Part shown: positions 4,399 through 24,518 of the stretch, piece after piece
How positions within the stretch are numbered: position 1 is the first letter of the stretch
Layout of the letters: each line of letters opens with the position of its first letter
From: Intrasporangiaceae bacterium URHB0013
Lineage (GTDB): Bacteria; Actinomycetota; Actinomycetes; Actinomycetales; Dermatophilaceae
Direction of reading: 5' to 3'
NCBI GenBank assembly: GCA_000620545.1
Contig: JIBA01000013.1
Coordinates: 124,001-188,000, forward strand
Length of the DNA: 64,000 nt
Notes under the pieces: generated by a model
The model's database searches: none
What the model was told of the DNA's origin: nothing
The model's input: the letters and a program-made list of their open reading frames with translations, nothing else
Position numbers and translations under genes: made by a program

Positions 4399-6113
4399 CG
4401 TTGGCCCTCCGTCGCCTCGGTCGTCGCGTTGCCCCCGGCGGACGCGTCGGGGAAGAGCCCGTCGGGCGCCCCGTTGCCGTCCCAGTTGAGCAGGTTGACC
4501 CGTCCTCGCAGCTCGCCGCCGGCAGTCGTCGACGTCGGTGTGTCGGACGTCTGGCGCTCCCTCAGCGCGTGGAACGTCTCGACCGCGACCGGTGCGGGCC
4601 GTCCGCTCGCCTCCCCGAACGGACCGGACTCGTACATCCCCGGCCCCTCCTCGAAGTCGAGCGAGCAGCCGATCTCCTCGAGCTCGTGCGCGCGCTCGAC
4701 GTGCGCCGTGGGGATGACGTAACGGTCGGCGTACTTCGCGATCGCCATGAGGCGGTACATCTCGTAGAGCGACTCCTCGCTCATCCCGACGGCCTCCGGG
4801 ATCGACGGGTCACCCTCTCGCCCGAGCGACACGTCGCGCATGTACGCGCGCATCGCGGCGAGCTTCTGGAGCACCCCCGTCACGATGTCGGTGCGACCGG
4901 CGGTGAAGAGCTCGGCGAGGTAGTCAACAGGAATGCGCAGTGCCTCGATGGCGCCGAAGAGCACGTCGCGGTCCTCGGCGTCGTGGCCCTGCGACGACAG
5001 GACGTCGACGATCGGCGAGAGCGGGGGCACGTACCAGACCATCGGCATCGTGCGGTACTCCGGGTGCAGCGGCAGCGCCACCCGGTAGGTCTTGGCGAGC
5101 GCGTAGACGGGCGAGCGCCGCGCCGCGTCCATCCAGTCGTCCGGTATGCCGTCGCGCCGCGCCGCCGAGATCACCTCGGGGTCCCTCGGGTCGAGGATCA
5201 GGTCGAGCTGCGCCTCGTAGAGGTCAGCTTCATCGGGAGTCGCCGCCGCGGCCGTGACGCGGTCGGCGTCGTAGAGGAAGAGGCCGAGGTAGCGCAGCCG
5301 GCCGACGCAGGTCTCGGAGCAGACCGTCGGCAGTCCGACCTCGATGCGCGGGTAGCAGAAGGTGCACTTCTCGGCTTTGCCGCTCTTGTGGTTGAAGTAG
5401 ATCTTCTTGTAGGGGCAGCCGGTGATGCACTGTCGCCAGCCGCGGCACCGGTCCTGGTCGACGAGGACGATGCCGTCCTCCTCGCGCTTGTAGATCGCGC
5501 CGGAGGGGCACGACGCCATGCAGGAGGGGTTGAGGCAGTGCTCGCAGATGCGGGGGAGGTAGAACATGAAGGTCTTCTCGAGCTCGAAGCGGACCTTCTC
5601 CTCCGACTCGCGGCGCACCGAGGCGTTGAGCTTGGCGACGATGGGGTCGAGGTGGCCCATCTCGCTCGTGCCACCGAGGTTGTCGTCCCAGTTCGCGGAC
5701 CAGGTGATCTTCGTGTTCTCGCCGGTGATGAGGGACTTGGGCCGGGCGACGGGGAAGTCGTCGCCGAGGGGTGCCTCGATGAGGGTCTGGTAGTCGTAGG
5801 TCCACGGCTCGTAGTAGTCGGCGAGCTTGGGCTGCACGGGGCTCGCGAAGATGCCGAGGAGCTTCTGCACGCGGCCTCCGGCCTTGAGCTTGAGGTTGCC
5901 GCGGTTGGTCAGGGTCCAGCCGCCCTTCCACGTGTCCTGGTCCTCGTAACGCCGCGGGTAGCCCTGGCCGGGCCGGGTCTCGACGTTGTTGAACCAGACG
6001 TACTCCGTGCCGGCGCGGTTGGTCCATGCCTGCTTGCACGTCACCGAGCAGGTGTGGCAGCCAATGCACTTGTCGAGGTTCATCACCATGCCCATCTGGG
6101 CCATGACTCGCAT
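4395..6113 (-). CDS. narH: Respiratory nitrate reductase beta subunit
   Basis: Iron-sulfur electron-transfer subunit (572 aa) on the cytoplasmic membrane face, linking NarI hemes to NarG. Four cysteine clusters are visible: CIGCHTCSVTC near residue 20, CEHCLNPSCMASCP, CRGWRQCITGCP (the tryptophan in place of cysteine is the mark of the [3Fe-4S] centre) and CTFCYPR with the following CSETC. The ATG at 6113 shares one base with the narG stop (TGATG); the longer upstream open frame lies inside narG. The C-terminal 70 residues beyond the core are Gly/Ser/Thr-rich and probably variable. Confidence 0.97.
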   Translation of the reverse strand: MRVMAQMGMVMNLDKCIGCHTCSVTCKQAWTNRAGTEYVWFNNVETRPGQGYPRRYEDQDTWKGGWTLTNRGNLKLKAGGRVQKLLGIFASPVQPKLADYYEPWTYDYQTLIEAPLGDDFPVARPKSLITGENTKITWSANWDDNLGGTSEMGHLDPIVAKLNASVRRESEEKVRFELEKTFMFYLPRICEHCLNPSCMASCPSGAIYKREEDGIVLVDQDRCRGWRQCITGCPYKKIYFNHKSGKAEKCTFCYPRIEVGLPTVCSETCVGRLRYLGLFLYDADRVTAAAATPDEADLYEAQLDLILDPRDPEVISAARRDGIPDDWMDAARRSPVYALAKTYRVALPLHPEYRTMPMVWYVPPLSPIVDVLSSQGHDAEDRDVLFGAIEALRIPVDYLAELFTAGRTDIVTGVLQKLAAMRAYMRDVSLGREGDPSIPEAVGMSEESLYEMYRLMAIAKYADRYVIPTAHVERAHELEEIGCSLDFEEGPGMYESGPFGEASGRPAPVAVETFHALRERQTSDTPTSTTAGGELRGRVNLLNWDGNGAPDGLFPDASAGGNATTEATEGQR

Positions 6114-9100
6114 CAGTACGCCACCTCCTGGGAACGCTTGCGCACGGTCGAGACCATGTCGCGCTGGTTCCCGGTCGGACCGAGGTAGTTGAAGGTGTAG
6201 GAGAGCTGTGCGTAGCCCCCGACGAGGTGGGTCGGCTTGACGAGCAGCCGGGTGACCGAGTTGTGGATCCCGCCGCGGCGACCGGTCGCCTCGGACTTCG
6301 GGACGTCGATCGTGCGCTCCTGCGCGTGGTGCACGTAGACCACGCCCTCCGGCATACGGTGGCTGACGATCGCCCGGCCGACGAGCACGCCGTTGTCGTT
6401 GAGGCACTCGACCCAGTCGTTGTCGGCGACGTCGATGGACCCTGCGTCCTGCGGGCTCATCCACACCGTCGGCCCGCCGCGCGAGAGCGACAGCATGAGC
6501 AGGTTGTCCTGGTACTCCGAGTGGATCGACCACTTCGAGTGCGGCGTCAGGTATCGCACGGTCACCTGCCGGCCACCGTCCGGCCCGAGCCTCGGCTCAC
6601 CGAAGAGCCGGTGCATGTCGAGCGGAGGCCGGTAGATCGGCAACGCCTCCCCCAGGTCCTGCATCCAGTCGTGGTCGAGGTAGAAGTGCATCCGACCGGT
6701 GAGGGTGTGGAAGGGCTTGAGGCGCTCGATGTTGACGGTGAAGGGGGCGTAGCGCCGTCCACCAGTTTCCGAACCCGACCACTCCGGTGACGTGATGACC
6801 GGCACCGGCTGCACCTGCGTGTCGGCGAAGGTGATCCGCTTCTCCTCGGAGCCCTCGGCGAGGTCGATGAGCTTCTTGCCCACACGCTCCTCGAGCGTGC
6901 GGAAGCCTTGGACGGCGAGGTGCCCGTTCGTCGTCCCCGAGAAGGTGAGGATGGCCTCGGCCAGCTTCGAGTCCGTGTCGATGGCCGGACGGCCGTCTCC
7001 CGCGCCGCCGAGCATGACGCCGTTCTTGGCGGCCAGGCGAGCGACCTCCTCCTCGACCCGGAAGGTCACGTTCTTGACGGTGAAGCCGAGCGAGTCGGCG
7101 AGTGGGCCCACCGTGGCGAGCTTCTCGCTGATCGCGGTGTAGTCGCGCTCGACGAGCTGGAAGACCGGCATCGTCCTGCCGGGCGTGCCCGGCTGCCCGG
7201 TCATGCGCCAGTCGATCGCGCGTCCACCCGGTTGCGCGGTCTCGCCCGGGGTGTCGTGCATGAGCGGCACGCTGACGAGGTCCTTGCGCACGCCGAGGTG
7301 GGTGCGCGCGAGGTCGGAGAGCTTCTCGGCGAGCAGGTGGAAGAGCTCGAAGTCGCTCTTGGCCTCCCAGGGCGGGTCGATCGCGGGGGTGAAGGCGTGC
7401 ACGAACGGGTGCATGTCGGTCGAGCTGAGGTCGTGCTTCTCGTACCACGTCGCCGCGGGCAGCACGATGTCGGACAGCAGTGTCGTCGACGTCATGCGGA
7501 AGTCGGCCGAGAGCAGCAGGTCGAGCTTGCCCTGGGGTGCCTCGTCGTGCCACCGCACCTCGGACGGCCTTGGTGCACGCGGGTTCTCGCTGCCCAAGAC
7601 GTTGTGGTGCGTGCCGAGCAGGTTGCGCAGGAAGTACTCGTTGCCCTTCGCCGAGGAGCCCATGAGGTTGCTGCGCCAGAGCACGAGCGTGCGCGGCCAG
7701 TTCTCCGGGGCGTCGACGTCCTCGATCGCCGAGGTCAGCGACCCCTCGTGCAGTGCACCCGCCACGTATGCCGCCGGGCTGGCCGCGGTGCCGGCGTCGA
7801 CGGCGGCCTGGGCGTCCTCGGCCACCTGGAGCGGGTTGGTGCCGAACTGCGGGTAGAACGGCATCCAGCCCATCCGGGCGGACTGTGCGATCGTGTCGGC
7901 CGTGTGCTTGCCGGCCAGATGGCCTCTGGCAAGAGGCGAGTTCAGCGAGTCTGCCGAGTAGCCGTCGTTGCGCCACTGGTCGGTATGCATGTACCAGTAC
8001 GACGTGCCCGTCATCGTGCGTGGCGGCCGGCCCCAGTCGAGGGCGTTGGCGAGGGAGATCCAGCCCGTGATTGGCCGGCACTTCTCCTGGCCGACGTAGT
8101 GTGCCCAGCCGCCACCGTTGCGGCCCATGCACCCGGTGAGGATGAGCAGCGAGAGGATCGCACGGTAGGTGGCGTCACCGTGGAACCACTGGCAGATGCC
8201 GGCCCCCATGATGATCATCGAGCGGCCTTGCGACTGCTCGGAGTTCGTCGCGAACTCCCGGGCGATGCGGATGCACTGGTCCGCGGGCACGCCGGTGATC
8301 TCGGCCTGCCAGGCGGGTGTGTAGGGGGCGGTCACGTCGTCGTAGCCGGTGGGCCAGCTGCCCGGCAGCCCGGGTCGCTCGACGCCGTACTGCGCGAGCA
8401 TGAGGTCGTAGACGGTGGTGACGAGGTGGCGCCCGACCCGGCGCGCGGGTACGCCGCGGCGAAGCACCGAGCCGGTGCCGTCGGGCGCGACGAAGGCCGG
8501 CAGCAGCACCTCGACCGGCTCGGCAGCGCCACCGGCCATCGTCAGAGCGGGGCTGACGCCGTCGAGGTCGAGGTTCCAACGCCCCTTGCCCGAGTCGGCG
8601 TAGCGAAAGCCCATCGAGCCGTTCGGCACGACCGGCTCACCCGTCGCACCGTCGAGCAGCACTGTCTTCCAGGCATCCTCGTCAGGCACGGGGGCGCCCG
8701 CGTCGGCGAGATCCGCGGCCATGAGGAACTTGCCCGGCACGAGGGGGGCGGTGCCCGCGCCACCCGGCGCGACGGGATACTCCTCCTCCGGAGGCTCGAG
8801 ACGGATGAGGAAGGGCAGGTCGCTGTAGGTCCGCACGTAGTCGGTGAAGAAGTCGACCTCGCGTTCGACGAAGAACTCCTTGAGGAGCACGTGGCCCATC
8901 GCCATGGCGAGCGCCGCGTCGGTGCCGGCCTGGGCGGGCATCCACTCGTCGGCGAACTTCGTGTTGTCGGCGTAGTCGGGGCTGACCGTGACGACCTTGG
9001 TGCCGCGGTAGCGGACCTCGGCCATCCAGTGCGCGTCGGGCGTGCGGGTGACGGGGACGTTGGAGCCCCACATCATGAGGTAGGTCGCGTCCCACCAGTC

Positions 9101-19686: not shown

Positions 19687-20259
19687 TCAGTCGACGGCCG
19701 TGACCGGGTCCCCGGCCTTGTCGCCGGCGGCCGCCTGCACGACCGGGTCAGTGGGCGACGGTGTCGCGCCCGAAGAGCCATGCCGACCCAGCGCCACAGC
19801 GGTCGCTGAGGCGGCGACGCCCAGCGCGAGTCCGCCGAGGGCCCAGCCCGGTCCCCACTCCTTGCGTCCCAACCCTGCGTCGACCGAGACGTCACCCGGG
19901 CCGGCGTCGATGAGTGCGGTCAGGGCGGCGATGAGGACAGCGTTGTACTCCCACCCGCCCTCTGCGACCCATGGCCCGTTCGGCTTGTGGACCTTGTAGA
20001 TCGCTGTGGCCATAGTGCCGATCAGGCTCGCGGCCGCTGCCGGGGTGGCTGCGCCGAGCATGACGAGGGCACCGCCGGCGCTTTCGCTGATGCCGGCGGC
20101 GAGTGCGTTGGCGCGTGTGGGTCGCATGTCCAGCGCACCCATCATCTGCTCGGTGGCCTCGAGCCCCGGCCCGCCGAACCAGCCAAAGAGCTTCTGCGTC
20201 CCGTGCCCGACGAAGAGTCCACCGATCACCACGCGCGCGGCGAGTCTTCCGATGTCCAT
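19687..20259 (-). CDS. DoxX-family membrane protein
   Basis: Integral membrane protein of 190 aa with four helices. The DoxX pattern is clear: ARVVIGGLFVGHGTQKLFGW, then GISESAGGALVMLG, ATAIYKVHKPNG and NAVLIAALTALIDAGPGDVS. The C-terminal tail after the last helix is Ala/Gly/Thr-rich. DoxX proteins take part in thiol or redox homeostasis in some actinobacteria. The GGAGGAGG box lies 5 nt before the ATG. It is divergent from the repeat protein gene that follows. Confidence 0.9.
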   Translation of the reverse strand: MDIGRLAARVVIGGLFVGHGTQKLFGWFGGPGLEATEQMMGALDMRPTRANALAAGISESAGGALVMLGAATPAAAASLIGTMATAIYKVHKPNGPWVAEGGWEYNAVLIAALTALIDAGPGDVSVDAGLGRKEWGPGWALGGLALGVAASATAVALGRHGSSGATPSPTDPVVQAAAGDKAGDPVTAVD

Positions 20260-20480: not shown

Positions 20481-21359
20481 ATGAGTGACACCCAGCCCAC
20501 CGGCCTGTCAGCCGAAGAGCTCGCCGCTGAGAGCACGACTGCCCTGCCGGACAAGGAGGTCGTCTCGATCCTCGACCTGAACGCCGACATCAACCTCGCG
20601 ATCGACGCCGCCGCCCCCATCGACCTGGCCGTGGCAGCGAACGCCAACGTGGCCGCACCGATCGACGCGGCGGTCAGCGCAAACATCCTGTCCTCAGACT
20701 CGACCGCGCAGGCTCTCAGCGATCAAGGCGTGATCATCAACCAGGGCATCGACGCCGACGCCACTGCGCACGCGGTGCAGGACAGCAATCTCGACCAGGG
20801 CAACGACGTGGTCGATGCGGGCAGCGCGACTGGTGCGGGCGACGCGAGTGGTGCCGCCGGGAGCACTGCCGCGGCGGCTGACGCGGACTCCACCGGCGTC
20901 GGCGGGACCGTGGGCGACACGACCGGAACGGCGGGTGACGCTGCGGGCGCCGTCGTGGGTGACACAACCGGCGGCCTGGGTGGCGCAGTCGGCGACACGA
21001 CCGGAACGGTCGGTGACGCCGTCGACGGGGCCACGGACGACGTCGGCGGTGCGGTCGACGGTGTCGACGGCACCGTGGGCGACACGGCAGGCAGCGTGAC
21101 CAGTGGCGGCCTGCTGGATGGTGACCTGCTGAACGTCGACGTCAACGTCGACGCGGACGCGGACGTCGCGGCGCCCATCAACGGCGCCGTGGCGGCGAAC
21201 GCGAACGTCGCAGCTCCGATCGACGCCGCGGTCGGCGCCAATGTCGGTTCCGTCGGCAGCGACGCGATCGCGGTCTCGCAGCAGGACGCGATCATCAACC
21301 AGGACATCACCGGTTCCGCCGAGGCGACGTCGGACCAGACCTCCGACATCAAGCAGTAG
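20481..21359 (+). CDS. Acidic repeat protein with RiPP-leader-like N terminus
   Basis: Unrecognised protein of 292 aa with a striking composition: no cysteine, only two lysines (25 and 291), rich in Ala, Asp, Gly, Val and Thr. Residues 1-31 resemble a RiPP leader (GLSAEELAAESTTALPDKEV). Residues 33-106 and 217-292 are a duplicated domain sharing VAANANVAAPIDAAV and an IINQ motif. Between them (139-205) is a GDTTGT-type Gly/Asp linker. There is no Sec signal peptide. The ATG has GGAG 7 nt upstream. The next gene, an M50 protease with a PqqD-like domain, begins 6 nt after the stop, so the protein is a likely substrate or partner. Confidence 0.8.
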   Translation: MSDTQPTGLSAEELAAESTTALPDKEVVSILDLNADINLAIDAAAPIDLAVAANANVAAPIDAAVSANILSSDSTAQALSDQGVIINQGIDADATAHAVQDSNLDQGNDVVDAGSATGAGDASGAAGSTAAAADADSTGVGGTVGDTTGTAGDAAGAVVGDTTGGLGGAVGDTTGTVGDAVDGATDDVGGAVDGVDGTVGDTAGSVTSGGLLDGDLLNVDVNVDADADVAAPINGAVAANANVAAPIDAAVGANVGSVGSDAIAVSQQDAIINQDITGSAEATSDQTSDIKQ

Positions 21360-21365
21360 GGGCAC

Positions 21366-23843
21366 ATGACGGTCCTGCCCGGGGCTTGGACAGGACGCGG
21401 CGACGAGGTGATGTCGTCCCGTCCTGTCGCCTCCGCGTCCGGAGCGGCCGTCCGTGCGGATGGCGTCGAGCTCATGGGCGAGATGGTGGGGTCCGGCTAC
21501 CGAGAGCCGCCGGCTCTCGCCCGCCGGGGCGACGGCCAGACGTTCCAGCTGACGCCGCTGGTCTACCTCGTGCTGGCCACGGTCGACGGCAGGCGCTCGT
21601 ACGACGAGGTCGGTGAGCGGGTCAGCGCCGTGTACGGCCGGACCGTCACCGGTGACAACGTGCGCACCCTGGTGGACCAACAGTTGCGCCCGCTGGGGTT
21701 GCTGGCCAAGGAGGACGGCTCTCAGCCGGACGTCAAGAAGTCCAACCCTCTGCTGGCTCTGAGATTCAAGTACGCCGTCAGCGACCCCGAGCAGACGCGG
21801 CGGGTGACCTCACCCTTCGCGCGGCTCTTCCACCCCGTCGTCGTGGCGCTGGTGATGGCGGCGTTCGTGGCCGTGAGCTGGTGGGTGCTCTTCCACAAGG
21901 GCCTTGCCTCCGCAACGCATCAGGCATTCGATAAACCCGGCCTCCTGCTGCTCGTCGTGGCGGTCACCATCCTGTCGGCCGGCTTCCACGAGTTCGGCCA
22001 CGCCGCCGCAGCTCGGCGTGGAGGTGCGACGCCCGGCGTGATGGGCGCCGGGGTCTACCTCGTCTGGCCGGCGTTCTACACCGACGTCACCGACTCCTAC
22101 CGGCTGGGCCGGGTGGGCCGGGTCCGCACCGACCTCGGCGGCCTGTACTTCAACGCCATCATCGCCGTCGGGATCGCCGGGGCGTGGTGGGCCACACAGT
22201 GGGACGCGCTGCTGCTCGTCGTGGCGACGCAGATCCTCCAGATGGTCCGGCAGCTGACGCCGCTCGTCCGCTTCGACGGCTACCACGTGCTCGCCGACGT
22301 CACCGGCGTCCCTGACCTCTTTCACCGGATCAAGCCCACCCTGCTCGGCGTCTTGCCGTGGCGGTGGAAGCACCCCGAGACGCGCATCCTCAAGCCCTGG
22401 GCGCGCGCGGTCGTGACCCTGTGGGTGCTGGTGGTGGTCCCTGTGCTCGCCTTCTCGATCTTCACGATGGTCATCGCCCTTCCGCGGCTTCTCGGCACCG
22501 CGTGGGCCAGCATGGGCAAGCAGTCCACTCTTCTGGCTCGGGCCTGGTCCGATGCTGCCCTGGTCGAGGTCGCAGCCCGGGGCATCGCCATCCTCGCCGT
22601 GGCGTTCCCCATCCTGGCGACCGCCGTCCTACTCACCCGTCTGCTGCGCCAGATCGTCAGCGCGTCGCTGCGGCGCACCGAGGGCAAGCCCGTGCGCCGG
22701 GGCTTGGTCGGCCTCGGCGCCGCAGCCCTCGTCGCCGGGTTGGCCCTGGCCTGGTGGCCGAACGCCGATACGTACCGCCCGATCCAGCCCTACGAGGGCG
22801 GCACGCTCACGCAGGCAGCTCACGCCATCCCAGTTCCGGCGGTGGTCCGCCCGGCGTCGAGCGGTCTCGTCGAGGGCCAGCGCGGGAGCCTGCTCACCGG
22901 CTGGGCCGACTCTGATGCCCGGCCCACCCGTGAGAAGCCGGAGCTGGCCCTCGTGCTGGTTCCTCGTGCGACCGGCACCTCGACCGGCTCCTCCACCGGC
23001 ACCGAGGCAGCAGATCCCGGCGGCGACGTCAATGGAGGAACCGGGGCGAACGTGCCGCAGTCCTGGGTCTTCCCGTTCAACAAGCCGCTCTCACCGGGGA
23101 CCGGCGACAACCAGGCGATGGCGGTCAACACGACCGACAACACGACTCAGTACGACGTCGCGTTCGCCCTCATCTGGATCGACGACGACTCGCCGGCGCT
23201 CAACACCAACGAGGCCTACGCGTTCTCCAGCTGCACCAACTGTGCCGCGGTCGCGGTTGGCTTCCAGATCGTGCTGGTCACCGGTGACAATCACGTTGCG
23301 GTGCCGCAGAACATCTCGGCTGCGGTCAACTACGACTGCATCAACTGCCTTTCCTACGCGCTCGCGACCCAGCTTTTCGTCACCCTCGAGGGGCCGCTCA
23401 GCGACGCAGGCAACCGGGAGATCGCCGCTTTGTGGAAGCAGATTGCCGATTTCGGCACGCACATCGCCGAGGTGCCACTCAGCGAGATCGCGGAGCGACT
23501 CGCGGCCTACGAGCAGGAGATCCTCCAGATCATCGAGAAGGAGCAGGGTCCGCTCACATCGGGCGACCCGGCGACCCTGCCTTCGGGCTCCCCGTCGGCG
23601 ACGGTCCAGGGCAGCGACGGCGGCTCCCCGACGTCCGACGCCACCAGCCCGGGCGAGAGCGTCTCTCCGAGCACCGGCACGGCGGGGGAGAGCGGCGCAA
23701 CAGATCCGGGCAGCACGAGCGAACCGTCACCGACAGGGACGCCCGTCCCCAGCTCCGGCGACGTCAGCTCGGACGAAACCACGCCCGAGCCCTCACCCAG
23801 CGACAGCGTGGCCCCCACCGCCAGCGGCGAGGCGTCCCCCTAG
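21366..23843 (+). CDS. M50 membrane metalloprotease with PqqD-like and exported C-terminal domains
   Basis: Protein of 825 aa. Residues 45-115 look like a PqqD-like winged helix (LTPLVYLVLATVDGRRSYDE). Hydrophobic helices follow. The zinc motif HEFGH is at 208-212 and the second M50 motif VRFDGYHVLAD at 301-311, so the catalytic site appears intact. More helices lie at about 350-375, 405-425 and 448-464. The C-terminal half is exported by prediction and contains two CxxC pairs (623-626 and 658-661), then a coiled segment and a Ser/Thr/Pro-rich tail from about 735. It resembles peptide-maturation M50 proteins; the substrate is inferred to be the upstream repeat protein. An ATG at 21411 is an alternative start. 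Confidence 0.85.
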   Translation: MTVLPGAWTGRGDEVMSSRPVASASGAAVRADGVELMGEMVGSGYREPPALARRGDGQTFQLTPLVYLVLATVDGRRSYDEVGERVSAVYGRTVTGDNVRTLVDQQLRPLGLLAKEDGSQPDVKKSNPLLALRFKYAVSDPEQTRRVTSPFARLFHPVVVALVMAAFVAVSWWVLFHKGLASATHQAFDKPGLLLLVVAVTILSAGFHEFGHAAAARRGGATPGVMGAGVYLVWPAFYTDVTDSYRLGRVGRVRTDLGGLYFNAIIAVGIAGAWWATQWDALLLVVATQILQMVRQLTPLVRFDGYHVLADVTGVPDLFHRIKPTLLGVLPWRWKHPETRILKPWARAVVTLWVLVVVPVLAFSIFTMVIALPRLLGTAWASMGKQSTLLARAWSDAALVEVAARGIAILAVAFPILATAVLLTRLLRQIVSASLRRTEGKPVRRGLVGLGAAALVAGLALAWWPNADTYRPIQPYEGGTLTQAAHAIPVPAVVRPASSGLVEGQRGSLLTGWADSDARPTREKPELALVLVPRATGTSTGSSTGTEAADPGGDVNGGTGANVPQSWVFPFNKPLSPGTGDNQAMAVNTTDNTTQYDVAFALIWIDDDSPALNTNEAYAFSSCTNCAAVAVGFQIVLVTGDNHVAVPQNISAAVNYDCINCLSYALATQLFVTLEGPLSDAGNREIAALWKQIADFGTHIAEVPLSEIAERLAAYEQEILQIIEKEQGPLTSGDPATLPSGSPSATVQGSDGGSPTSDATSPGESVSPSTGTAGESGATDPGSTSEPSPTGTPVPSSGDVSSDETTPEPSPSDSVAPTASGEASP

Positions 23844-23981
23844 GACGACAGTGCCTGCCAGCGGCAGCCTGATGCCGGGGCGTTCACTCGCCGAGCGCCC
23901 AGACGCGCCCGACCAGGCCAACCGCCGGCATACGTCCGTGGGCACCATGATGAGCGCGTTGGCTTCGGATCGGAGGAGATG

Positions 23982-24518
23982 ATGAGACGACCGACACTGT
24001 TCCTGACAGTGGGTCTTCCCGGTACCGGCAAGACCACTGCCGCGCGGCGCATCGAGGTCGAGCAGAGCGCACTTCGTCTCACGAAGGACGAATGGGTCAA
24101 GGCCCTCTACGGGCAGGAGAATCCGCCGTCGGCCCAGGACGTGATCGAAGGGCGGCTCGTCCAGATCGGGCTGCGCGTCCTCGAGCTCGGCAACAACGTC
24201 GTGATCGACTACGGCCTCTGGGGCCGAGACGAGCGCTCCGCCTTGCGTCAGGCGGCAGCGGACCGCGGCGCCAGGGTGGAGATGCGCTACTTCGAGCTCG
24301 GCCCGGCCGAGCAACGGAGTCGACTGGATCAGCGCCAGGCCGAGGCCTCGCACACGACCTGGCGCATGTCCGATGAGGAACTCGTCCAGTGGGCTGCACA
24401 GATCGACATCCCGACGCCGGGGGAGCTGGACGGCAGCGAACCCGTTGATGAGCCACCGCCCGGGTTCGCAACCTGGGCCGAGTGGCGCGCTCATCGCTGG
24501 CCGCCGTCTGTCTCCTGA
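23982..24518 (+). CDS. P-loop AAA/Zeta-like kinase family protein
   Basis: Cytoplasmic ATP-binding protein of 178 aa. A Walker A motif GLPGTGKTT lies near residue 13, followed by a Walker-B-like strand NNVVIDYGLW and a lid-like arginine region (RYFELGPAEQRSRLDQRQ). It belongs to the AAA_33 group of small predicted kinases and is not a known pathway enzyme. The second of two tandem ATGs (23982) is chosen because GGAGG sits 5 nt upstream. The C-terminal tail from PTPGELDGSEP is Pro-rich. Confidence 0.85.
   Translation: MRRPTLFLTVGLPGTGKTTAARRIEVEQSALRLTKDEWVKALYGQENPPSAQDVIEGRLVQIGLRVLELGNNVVIDYGLWGRDERSALRQAAADRGARVEMRYFELGPAEQRSRLDQRQAEASHTTWRMSDEELVQWAAQIDIPTPGELDGSEPVDEPPPGFATWAEWRAHRWPPSVS

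Follow-up and report, generated by a model that had tools for sequence, protein, structure and literature searches.

What purpose is served by a gene for an acidic repeat protein that lies six nucleotides upstream of a gene for a membrane protease? The question is raised by a 64,000-nucleotide stretch of DNA from Intrasporangiaceae bacterium URHB0013 (contig JIBA01000013.1, positions 124,001 to 188,000 of the forward strand), which we analysed as a whole and refer to as the window. Here P0001, a leader-bearing repeat protein and putative substrate of 292 residues (20481–21359, plus strand), is followed by P0002, an 825-residue site-2 (M50) protease with a long C-terminal extension and an N-terminal domain that resembles PqqD and the RiPP recognition element (RRE), RiPP being a ribosomally synthesized and post-translationally modified peptide (21366–23843, plus strand). 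The initial annotation had placed two open reading frames (ORFs) with a six-nucleotide gap (21360–21365) at these positions, correctly, and had proposed a RiPP-like system. Comparison across genomes indicates that the repeat protein and the protease are a real conserved unit, and we favour, with a probability of roughly 0.6, the reading that this unit carries out leader-dependent maturation or export of an apparently unmodified extracellular repeat protein.

Whether homologues of the two genes occur together was a check named beforehand in the initial annotation, and they do. We searched for the protease in three sets of genomes, from the same genus, the same family and the same class, which comprise 60 distinct genomes. 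The protease is found in 3 of 9 genomes of the genus, including its own, which holds a single match at E 0.001; in 1 of 13 genomes of the family, its own only; and in 13 of 40 genomes of the class at E 0.001, its own included (10 of 40 at E <1e-100). With E 1e-100 as the cut-off for a strong homologue, which leaves genomes G038, G047 and G059 and a second place in G022 below it, 12 of the 60 genomes are positive. Matches to the substrate profile, A9, occur in 11 of the 60 genomes (3/21 plus 8/39), all within the protease-positive 12, compared to none of the other 48; the hypergeometric P value of 3.5e-11 ignores phylogeny, and genomes of one genus are non-independent samples in these counts. 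A9 was built from 17 of the 21 rows of A6, an alignment of leader ORFs, and its rows come from 10 of the 11 genomes found (the exception is G030); therefore, the positives are partly circular, but the 48 negatives are not. In the twelfth genome, G058, the protease is preceded by two ORFs whose leader is divergent; a hidden Markov model (HMM) of the leader places them at ranks 1 and 2, but weakly (E 0.032 and 0.14).

The arrangement of the genes is similarly constant in the 16 loci that we compared, which come from the 12 strong genomes (two loci from G053), Mycolicibacterium sp. BiH015 and two Streptomyces plasmids. In 15 of them the protease has a leader ORF upstream of it on its own strand, and the gap between substrate and protease runs from −4 to 39 nucleotides in the eight loci that encode long forms of the substrate. 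In the remaining locus, L032, the start of the protease lies near the end of a contig, and that genome has three substrate matches less than 740 bases from the end of another contig, directed off it.

The leader-like N terminus ascribed to P0001 is borne out by these homologues. In P0001 the leader region, LSAEELAAESTTALPDKEVVSILDL, spans residues 9–33 (20505–20579, plus strand) and is matched by the leader HMM with E 6e-10, at rank 1 among the 976 ORFs of the window. The motif LPx[KR] is present in all 21 substrates of A6, from which a second leader ORF at locus L037 (within 6083–6583) was left out, and L22 and P23 are invariant in all 21. When a 27-column HMM of the leader alone was rebuilt without the locus under test, the upstream ORF ranked first among six-frame ORFs in 15 of 15 loci, with E ≤1.5e-5 in 13 of them, although the columns were taken from an alignment made with all rows. 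The top ranks of the leader HMM include Streptomyces loci with cores unlike that of P0001, and the full leader HMM gave no E below 0.5 at the four loci that surround M50 proteins with weak matches. The mean pairwise identity is 40% in leader columns versus 39% in aligned core columns, which speaks against a sharp contrast between leader and core. A lone 71-residue frame in another genome, away from the contig of its protease (G030:C98:27672–27755), matches the leader part only of the substrate profile (E 1e-4) and is a possible substrate in trans.

The body of P0001 consists of two similar modules on either side of a linker. Module 1 (20580–20798) contains a moderately hydrophobic stretch with Asn and Pro, APIDLAVAANANVAAPIDAAVSANIL, and two 18-residue units that end at residues 88 and 106; a variable Gly/Asp/Thr-rich linker follows (20799–21116), the length of which is not conserved in alignment A2; and module 2 (21117–21356) has a stretch of the same type and two more 18-residue units, the last of which closes the protein at Q292, all on the plus strand. 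The repeats first noticed in this protein are real: the pattern AxAxxxQxxxIxQ begins at residues 76, 94, 262 and 280, in two pairs spaced by 18, compared to 0.06 occurrences of the relaxed pattern expected per shuffled copy. The protein is acidic (46 Asp plus Glu, no Arg). As had been described, it has no Cys and only two Lys, and its N terminus, MSDTQPTGLSAEELAAESTTALPDKEVVSILDLNAD, judged by eye, is without a basic and hydrophobic Sec-like signal. The profile A9, which contains this sequence, matches it with E 7e-29 and gives a second match in module 2 (G000:C11:145135–145308).

This organization extends to the other substrates, which fall into two size classes. The long substrates (214–506 residues; the window, L002, L042, L043 and L028–L031) have two modules and a variable linker, with paired units spaced by 18 or 19 residues, and the short substrates (66–89 residues) occur in one to three tandem copies: three each in L033 and L034, two each in L036, L037 (one used) and L006, and L035 and L005. 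The stretch between leader and units is conserved, with a long-form consensus of NxNVAAPIDAAVxANIL. In total, the relaxed pattern has 39 matches in the 21 substrates versus 0.57 in shuffled copies, a shuffle that ignores common descent, and 17 of the 21 carry the unit. Most cores are strongly acidic and 16 of the 21 substrates are free of Cys. In the substrate of L043 (6846–8366), residues 296–340 of the long linker match Pfam DUF3659 (E 3e-5) at 24.5 bits, against a cut-off of 24.8 bits.

P0002 has the expected features of a site-2 (M50) protease, namely an HExxH motif, a distal Asp motif and multi-pass hydrophobic segments. Its membrane core covers residues 147–465 (21804–22760, plus strand), with HEFGH at residues 208–212 (21987–22001) and RFDGYHVLAD at residues 302–311 (22269–22298), so that the motifs reported initially are indeed intact, and H208, E209, H212 and D304 are invariant in all 16 homologues. 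The reading frame begins at 21366 or at an in-frame ATG at 21411; the length of the N terminus in the Mycolicibacterium homologue (L002) favours 21411. All 16 proteases match the NCBIfam model NF041824 (daptide_HExxH), with a best E of 4e-33; for P0002 the match covers residues 50–324 (E 4e-30). No Pfam model, that of M50 included, is convincing on P0002, a search of PDB profiles with the whole protease gave no match, and Foldseek with a low-confidence model of the protease returned nothing at E 0.001 or better.

The N-terminal domain of P0002 (about residues 30–115; 21453–21710, plus strand) is supported but not proven as a PqqD/RRE-type domain by the profile comparisons that reach it. The match to NF041824 begins at residue 50, inside this domain, and the daptide protease family is described as RRE-fused (PMC10036551). 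Furthermore, hhalign of alignment A5 against a Pontibrevibacter plasmid protein (L045), in which PqqD is followed by M50, the order proposed for P0002, gave 97.6% over a region that starts at column 58 and runs on through the protease, and residues 38–101 of that protein score above the Pfam PqqD cut-off (24.1 versus 23.4 bits). Weaker signals come from the ApyI RiPP-binding model (residues 57–113, E 0.014) and from PqqD 3g2b, the best PDB profile match of the domain, which at E 0.11 is not significant alone. The AlphaFold model, whose confidence is too low to count for the domain, has helices at 64–72, 79–90 and 96–110 after two single-residue bridges. The Pfam PqqD profile also leaves four other M50-HlyD proteins unmatched. 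At another place in the same genome (G000:C14:47431–47598), Pfam recognises a PqqD-like domain of its own (30 bits), adjoining an ORF that by eye resembles tyrosine kinases of the capsule or chain-length type (L044).

The C-terminal extension of P0002 contains a domain with two CxxC motifs (residues 570–729; CTNC at 623–626 and CINC at 658–661; 23073–23552, plus strand), which is followed by a tail rich in Ser, Thr and Pro (23553–23840, plus strand). This domain is fused to the protease in 8 of the 16 loci, and its homologues are separate downstream ORFs in five others (L032, L033, L034, L036 and L005). Among the 13 CxxC domains, 12 columns are invariant, including the four Cys, N46 and Q100 (domain numbering). 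The form of the substrate follows that of the protease: all eight long-form loci have the CxxC domain on the same chain as the protease, and none of the seven short-form loci do. The separate copies in L032 and L033 begin, by eye, with signal-peptide-like sequences, which suggests that the CxxC domain is probably exported and lies outside the membrane. Comparison with Pfam, NCBIfam and known structures gave no convincing relative of this domain; its PDB profile search gave a designed coiled coil (E 0.003) over the C-terminal helical part, and other matches were weaker. One protease, that of L036 (6617–8902), has a MinD/ParA-like ATPase as its C-terminal half in place of the CxxC domain, which the next, overlapping ORF encodes; by sequence it is the one of the 16 that matches Pfam CbiA (E 5e-10) and NCBIfam minD_bact (E 3e-9).

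Sequence comparison establishes the conserved pair, the leader, the integrity of the catalytic motifs, the partner domain and the periodic units, and the simplest order of events that they suggest, from leader binding to assembly, is as follows. The docking site for the acidic N-terminal leader, with LP-x-[KR] at its core, would be the PqqD/RRE-type domain on the cytosolic side of P0002, and the moderately hydrophobic stretch with Asn and Pro would enter the intramembrane zinc site and be cut there, which would make it the putative cleavage site. Site-2 substrates often require helix-breaking residues. The repeat part, chemically unmodified, would then be set free outside the cell, where the CxxC domain, fused here and probably a separate exported protein elsewhere, might receive, fold or anchor it, and the 18-residue Ala/Gln/Ile units would probably form beta-arches, packed into an assembly outside the cell or in its wall. 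Thus described, the pair seems to work like an RRE-protease leader system on structural-looking proteins.

Several observations weigh against this reading. With respect to the domain that would hold the leader, the Pfam PqqD profile (PF05402) misses P0002 both by protein and in a search of the whole genome, and hhalign reached only 11.9% when the N-terminal domain by itself was compared with that of the Pontibrevibacter protein, so that the PqqD-like domain of the initial annotation stands indirectly, through NF041824 and the longer hhalign match, but not through Pfam. With respect to the cut, the mean hydropathy of the stretch is 1.27 over 19 residues in P0001, which is low for a transmembrane helix, and is at most 1.5 in two short forms. 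The structural predictions, each from a two-sequence alignment and including the fold check named in the initial annotation, are poor: the mean predicted local distance difference test score is 38 for the protease and 47 for the substrate, and the weak model of the substrate is helical, not beta. Similarly, Pfam, its repeat models included, gave no match of the substrate to a beta-repeat family. The unit is missing in 4 of the 21 substrates (those of L035 and L037 and both of L006), among them both Streptomyces changanensis substrates, and a recognised CxxC partner was not found in 3 of the 16 loci (L035, L037 and L006). A loose pattern for the leader motif matches chance ORFs in two of four control loci (L040 and L041), and therefore the regular expression alone is not discriminating. 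Finally, an enzyme encoded elsewhere may modify the substrate.

This last point leads to the alternative closest to the initial annotation, a true RiPP, in which enzymes encoded elsewhere would modify the core before removal of the leader to yield a bioactive peptide or a modified protein. The combination of a leader with RRE-protease logic is typical of RiPPs, as are precursors of 66–89 residues in one to three tandem copies, and the top models for the protease (daptide and epipeptide) are RiPP-specific. However, all-versus-all comparison of the neighbours in 20 loci (the 16 strong loci and the four around weakly matching M50 proteins) found, beyond the substrate and the protease with its CxxC domain, no family in more than three loci, with neighbours not all annotated singly. 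The family common to three strong loci (L034, L042 and L043) is a generic zinc alcohol dehydrogenase, 0.5–5 kb from the pair, and another is common to L037, L039 and L040. No modifying enzyme recurs in these neighbourhoods, nor does a radical S-adenosylmethionine (radical-SAM) family, as seen with a crude gene caller that missed the three substrates of L033, may miss small genes and covered positions 8000–36000 of the window. The absence of Cys from most substrates and the 214–506 residues of the substrates of the window type also argue against a RiPP, which we consider unlikely. We read the term RiPP-like as suited to the recognition logic of this system, with its leader, pairing and RRE-type protease, and not to its chemistry; the claim survives in the first sense and is not supported in the sense of modification.

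The small tandem leader peptides beside a protease that matches the epipeptide-protease model might instead point to peptides that act as bacteriocins or in cell-envelope stress, on the pattern of EpeX/EpeP; the long forms would then be fused poly-precursors. We regard this as improbable, given that no recurring neighbour fits an immunity protein, an exporter or a radical-SAM epimerase, and that most cores are strongly acidic. Even less is to be said for regulated intramembrane proteolysis, in which P0001 would be a regulator cut by a signalling protease: site-2 proteases commonly cut membrane regulators, but P0001 matched no DNA-binding, sigma or anti-sigma family in Pfam or NCBIfam and shows no transmembrane helix clearly, and the partner domain seems to lie outside the cell. 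This explanation is very improbable. The acidic low-complexity linker and the poor structure prediction would also suit an unrelated low-complexity repeat protein that is merely co-transcribed with its neighbour. This idea has to contend with the co-occurrence in 11 of 12 versus 0 of 48 genomes and with a leader profile that finds the ORF despite differing cores, and we give it almost no credence.

The reading as leader-dependent maturation or export of a repeat protein invites comparison with known systems. Curli CsgA has short Gln/Ala-containing repeats, and the units described here are similar in being short, Gln/Ala-containing and repeated at about 18–22 residues. Membership among the curlins was rejected, as there is no curlin match among the Pfam profile matches. 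In daptide biosynthesis, leader removal is assigned to MpaP, an RRE-dependent site-2 protease (PMC10036551). P0002 is like MpaP/DapP in having a putative RRE-type region at the N terminus of a site-2 protease, aligned over residues 50–324. In contrast, it scores 105.1 bits against the 300-bit cut-off of NF041824 and has the extra CxxC domain, and no oxidative decarboxylase, aminotransferase or methyltransferase recurs among the neighbours in the 20 loci, which were not all annotated singly. Moreover, of the daptide features given in that paper (PMC10036551), a motif like ELExMEAP is found in none of the 21 substrates, and a C-terminal Thr in one, which is not P0001. For EpeP, cleavage and export of EpeX have been proposed (PMC10885120), and P0002 resembles EpeP/YydH/LiaK as an M50 site-2 protease with a leader peptide as its putative substrate. 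However, P0002 scores 28.7 bits against the 225-bit cut-off of the epipeptide-protease model NF058609, with a match in the protease core only (residues 164–315), and there is no recurring radical-SAM gene. Assignment to the daptide or the epipeptide systems was rejected, the defining features of both being absent. The TMcin protease TmcP, of the site-2 clan, removes a leader at the membrane, but it belongs to the DUF3267 family and is accompanied by disulfide and ATP-binding cassette (ABC) transporter genes and a substrate with a true transmembrane helix; the text that describes it (PMC13252029) mentions neither RRE nor PqqD.

Relatives of the protease in Proteobacteria have an HlyD-like C terminus, and we examined the context of 6 of 62 matched records (Pontibrevibacter, Escherichia coli, Azospirillum TSA2s, Variovorax, Azospirillum ramasamyi and Cupriavidus). 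The Pontibrevibacter protein mentioned above ends in an HlyD-like region where proteins of the P0002 type have the CxxC domain, and its gene lies two genes downstream of one of 31.8 kb that encodes a protein with the N-terminal LEPR-XLL motif. An M50-HlyD gene lies 3′ of a giant gene on an E. coli plasmid (13.4 kb), in Azospirillum TSA2s (13.0 kb) and in Variovorax (48.7 kb), with TolC, adaptor and HlyD genes in between; no ABC ATPase is listed in these three stretches, for which the plasmid gene table is incomplete. A LExR motif is found near the start of the E. coli and Variovorax giants and not at the annotated Azospirillum start. A. ramasamyi has TolC, adaptor and HlyD genes upstream and no giant gene in the stretch seen, the Cupriavidus record is without annotation, and the Hymenobacter and Rhodococcus records have no giant same-strand neighbour. 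The leader HMM misses the LEPR-XLL N termini, and we therefore gave up the idea that these are homologous to the leader; the link is by the partner protein only. The plasmid loci L045, L049, L054 and L055, with giant repeat genes of 13–49 kb, are possibly a proteobacterial counterpart of the export system, a lead and not a demonstration.

Most of what is known about RREs comes from pathways that make peptide natural products. In the present system, an intramembrane protease seems to apply this way of reading a leader to repeat proteins that reach about 500 residues. If so, leader plus RRE would be a signal for the export or maturation of proteins, the substrate range of site-2 proteases would be wider, and families that recur without a name in the Pfam and NCBIfam copies searched would gain a function. 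The recurrence of the pair in other high-GC bacteria, with no recurring modification enzyme, hints at an undescribed form of surface-protein export. A more speculative extension, which we hold tentatively and rate as doubtful, is an actinobacterial export and assembly route in which the RRE-fused site-2 protease would receive the leader and would also be the gate through which unmodified beta-arch repeat proteins leave the cell, to be passed to the extracellular CxxC subunit, which would nucleate a surface fibre, with the proteobacterial (PqqD-)M50-HlyD proteins beside giants of the LEPR-XLL/LExR type as the outer-membrane version.

Searches of the literature and of mobile elements found little that bears on the pair. 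The string LPDREAMS is absent from papers in the open-licence PubMed Central text, and among the matches listed there no title or start of an abstract describes a substrate–protease pair of this kind. No relatives were confirmed in viral contigs, nor any of the protease in phages, and plasmids gave none of the substrate. The neighbours of the pair in the window, a DoxX-family protein (19687–20259, minus strand) and an AAA_33/zeta-like kinase (23979–24518, plus strand), are not shared with the other loci. On a Rhodococcus plasmid (L051, 2261–4783), a distant relative of the protease lies directly 3′ of a radical-SAM gene, and this locus is a candidate for a conventional RiPP locus.

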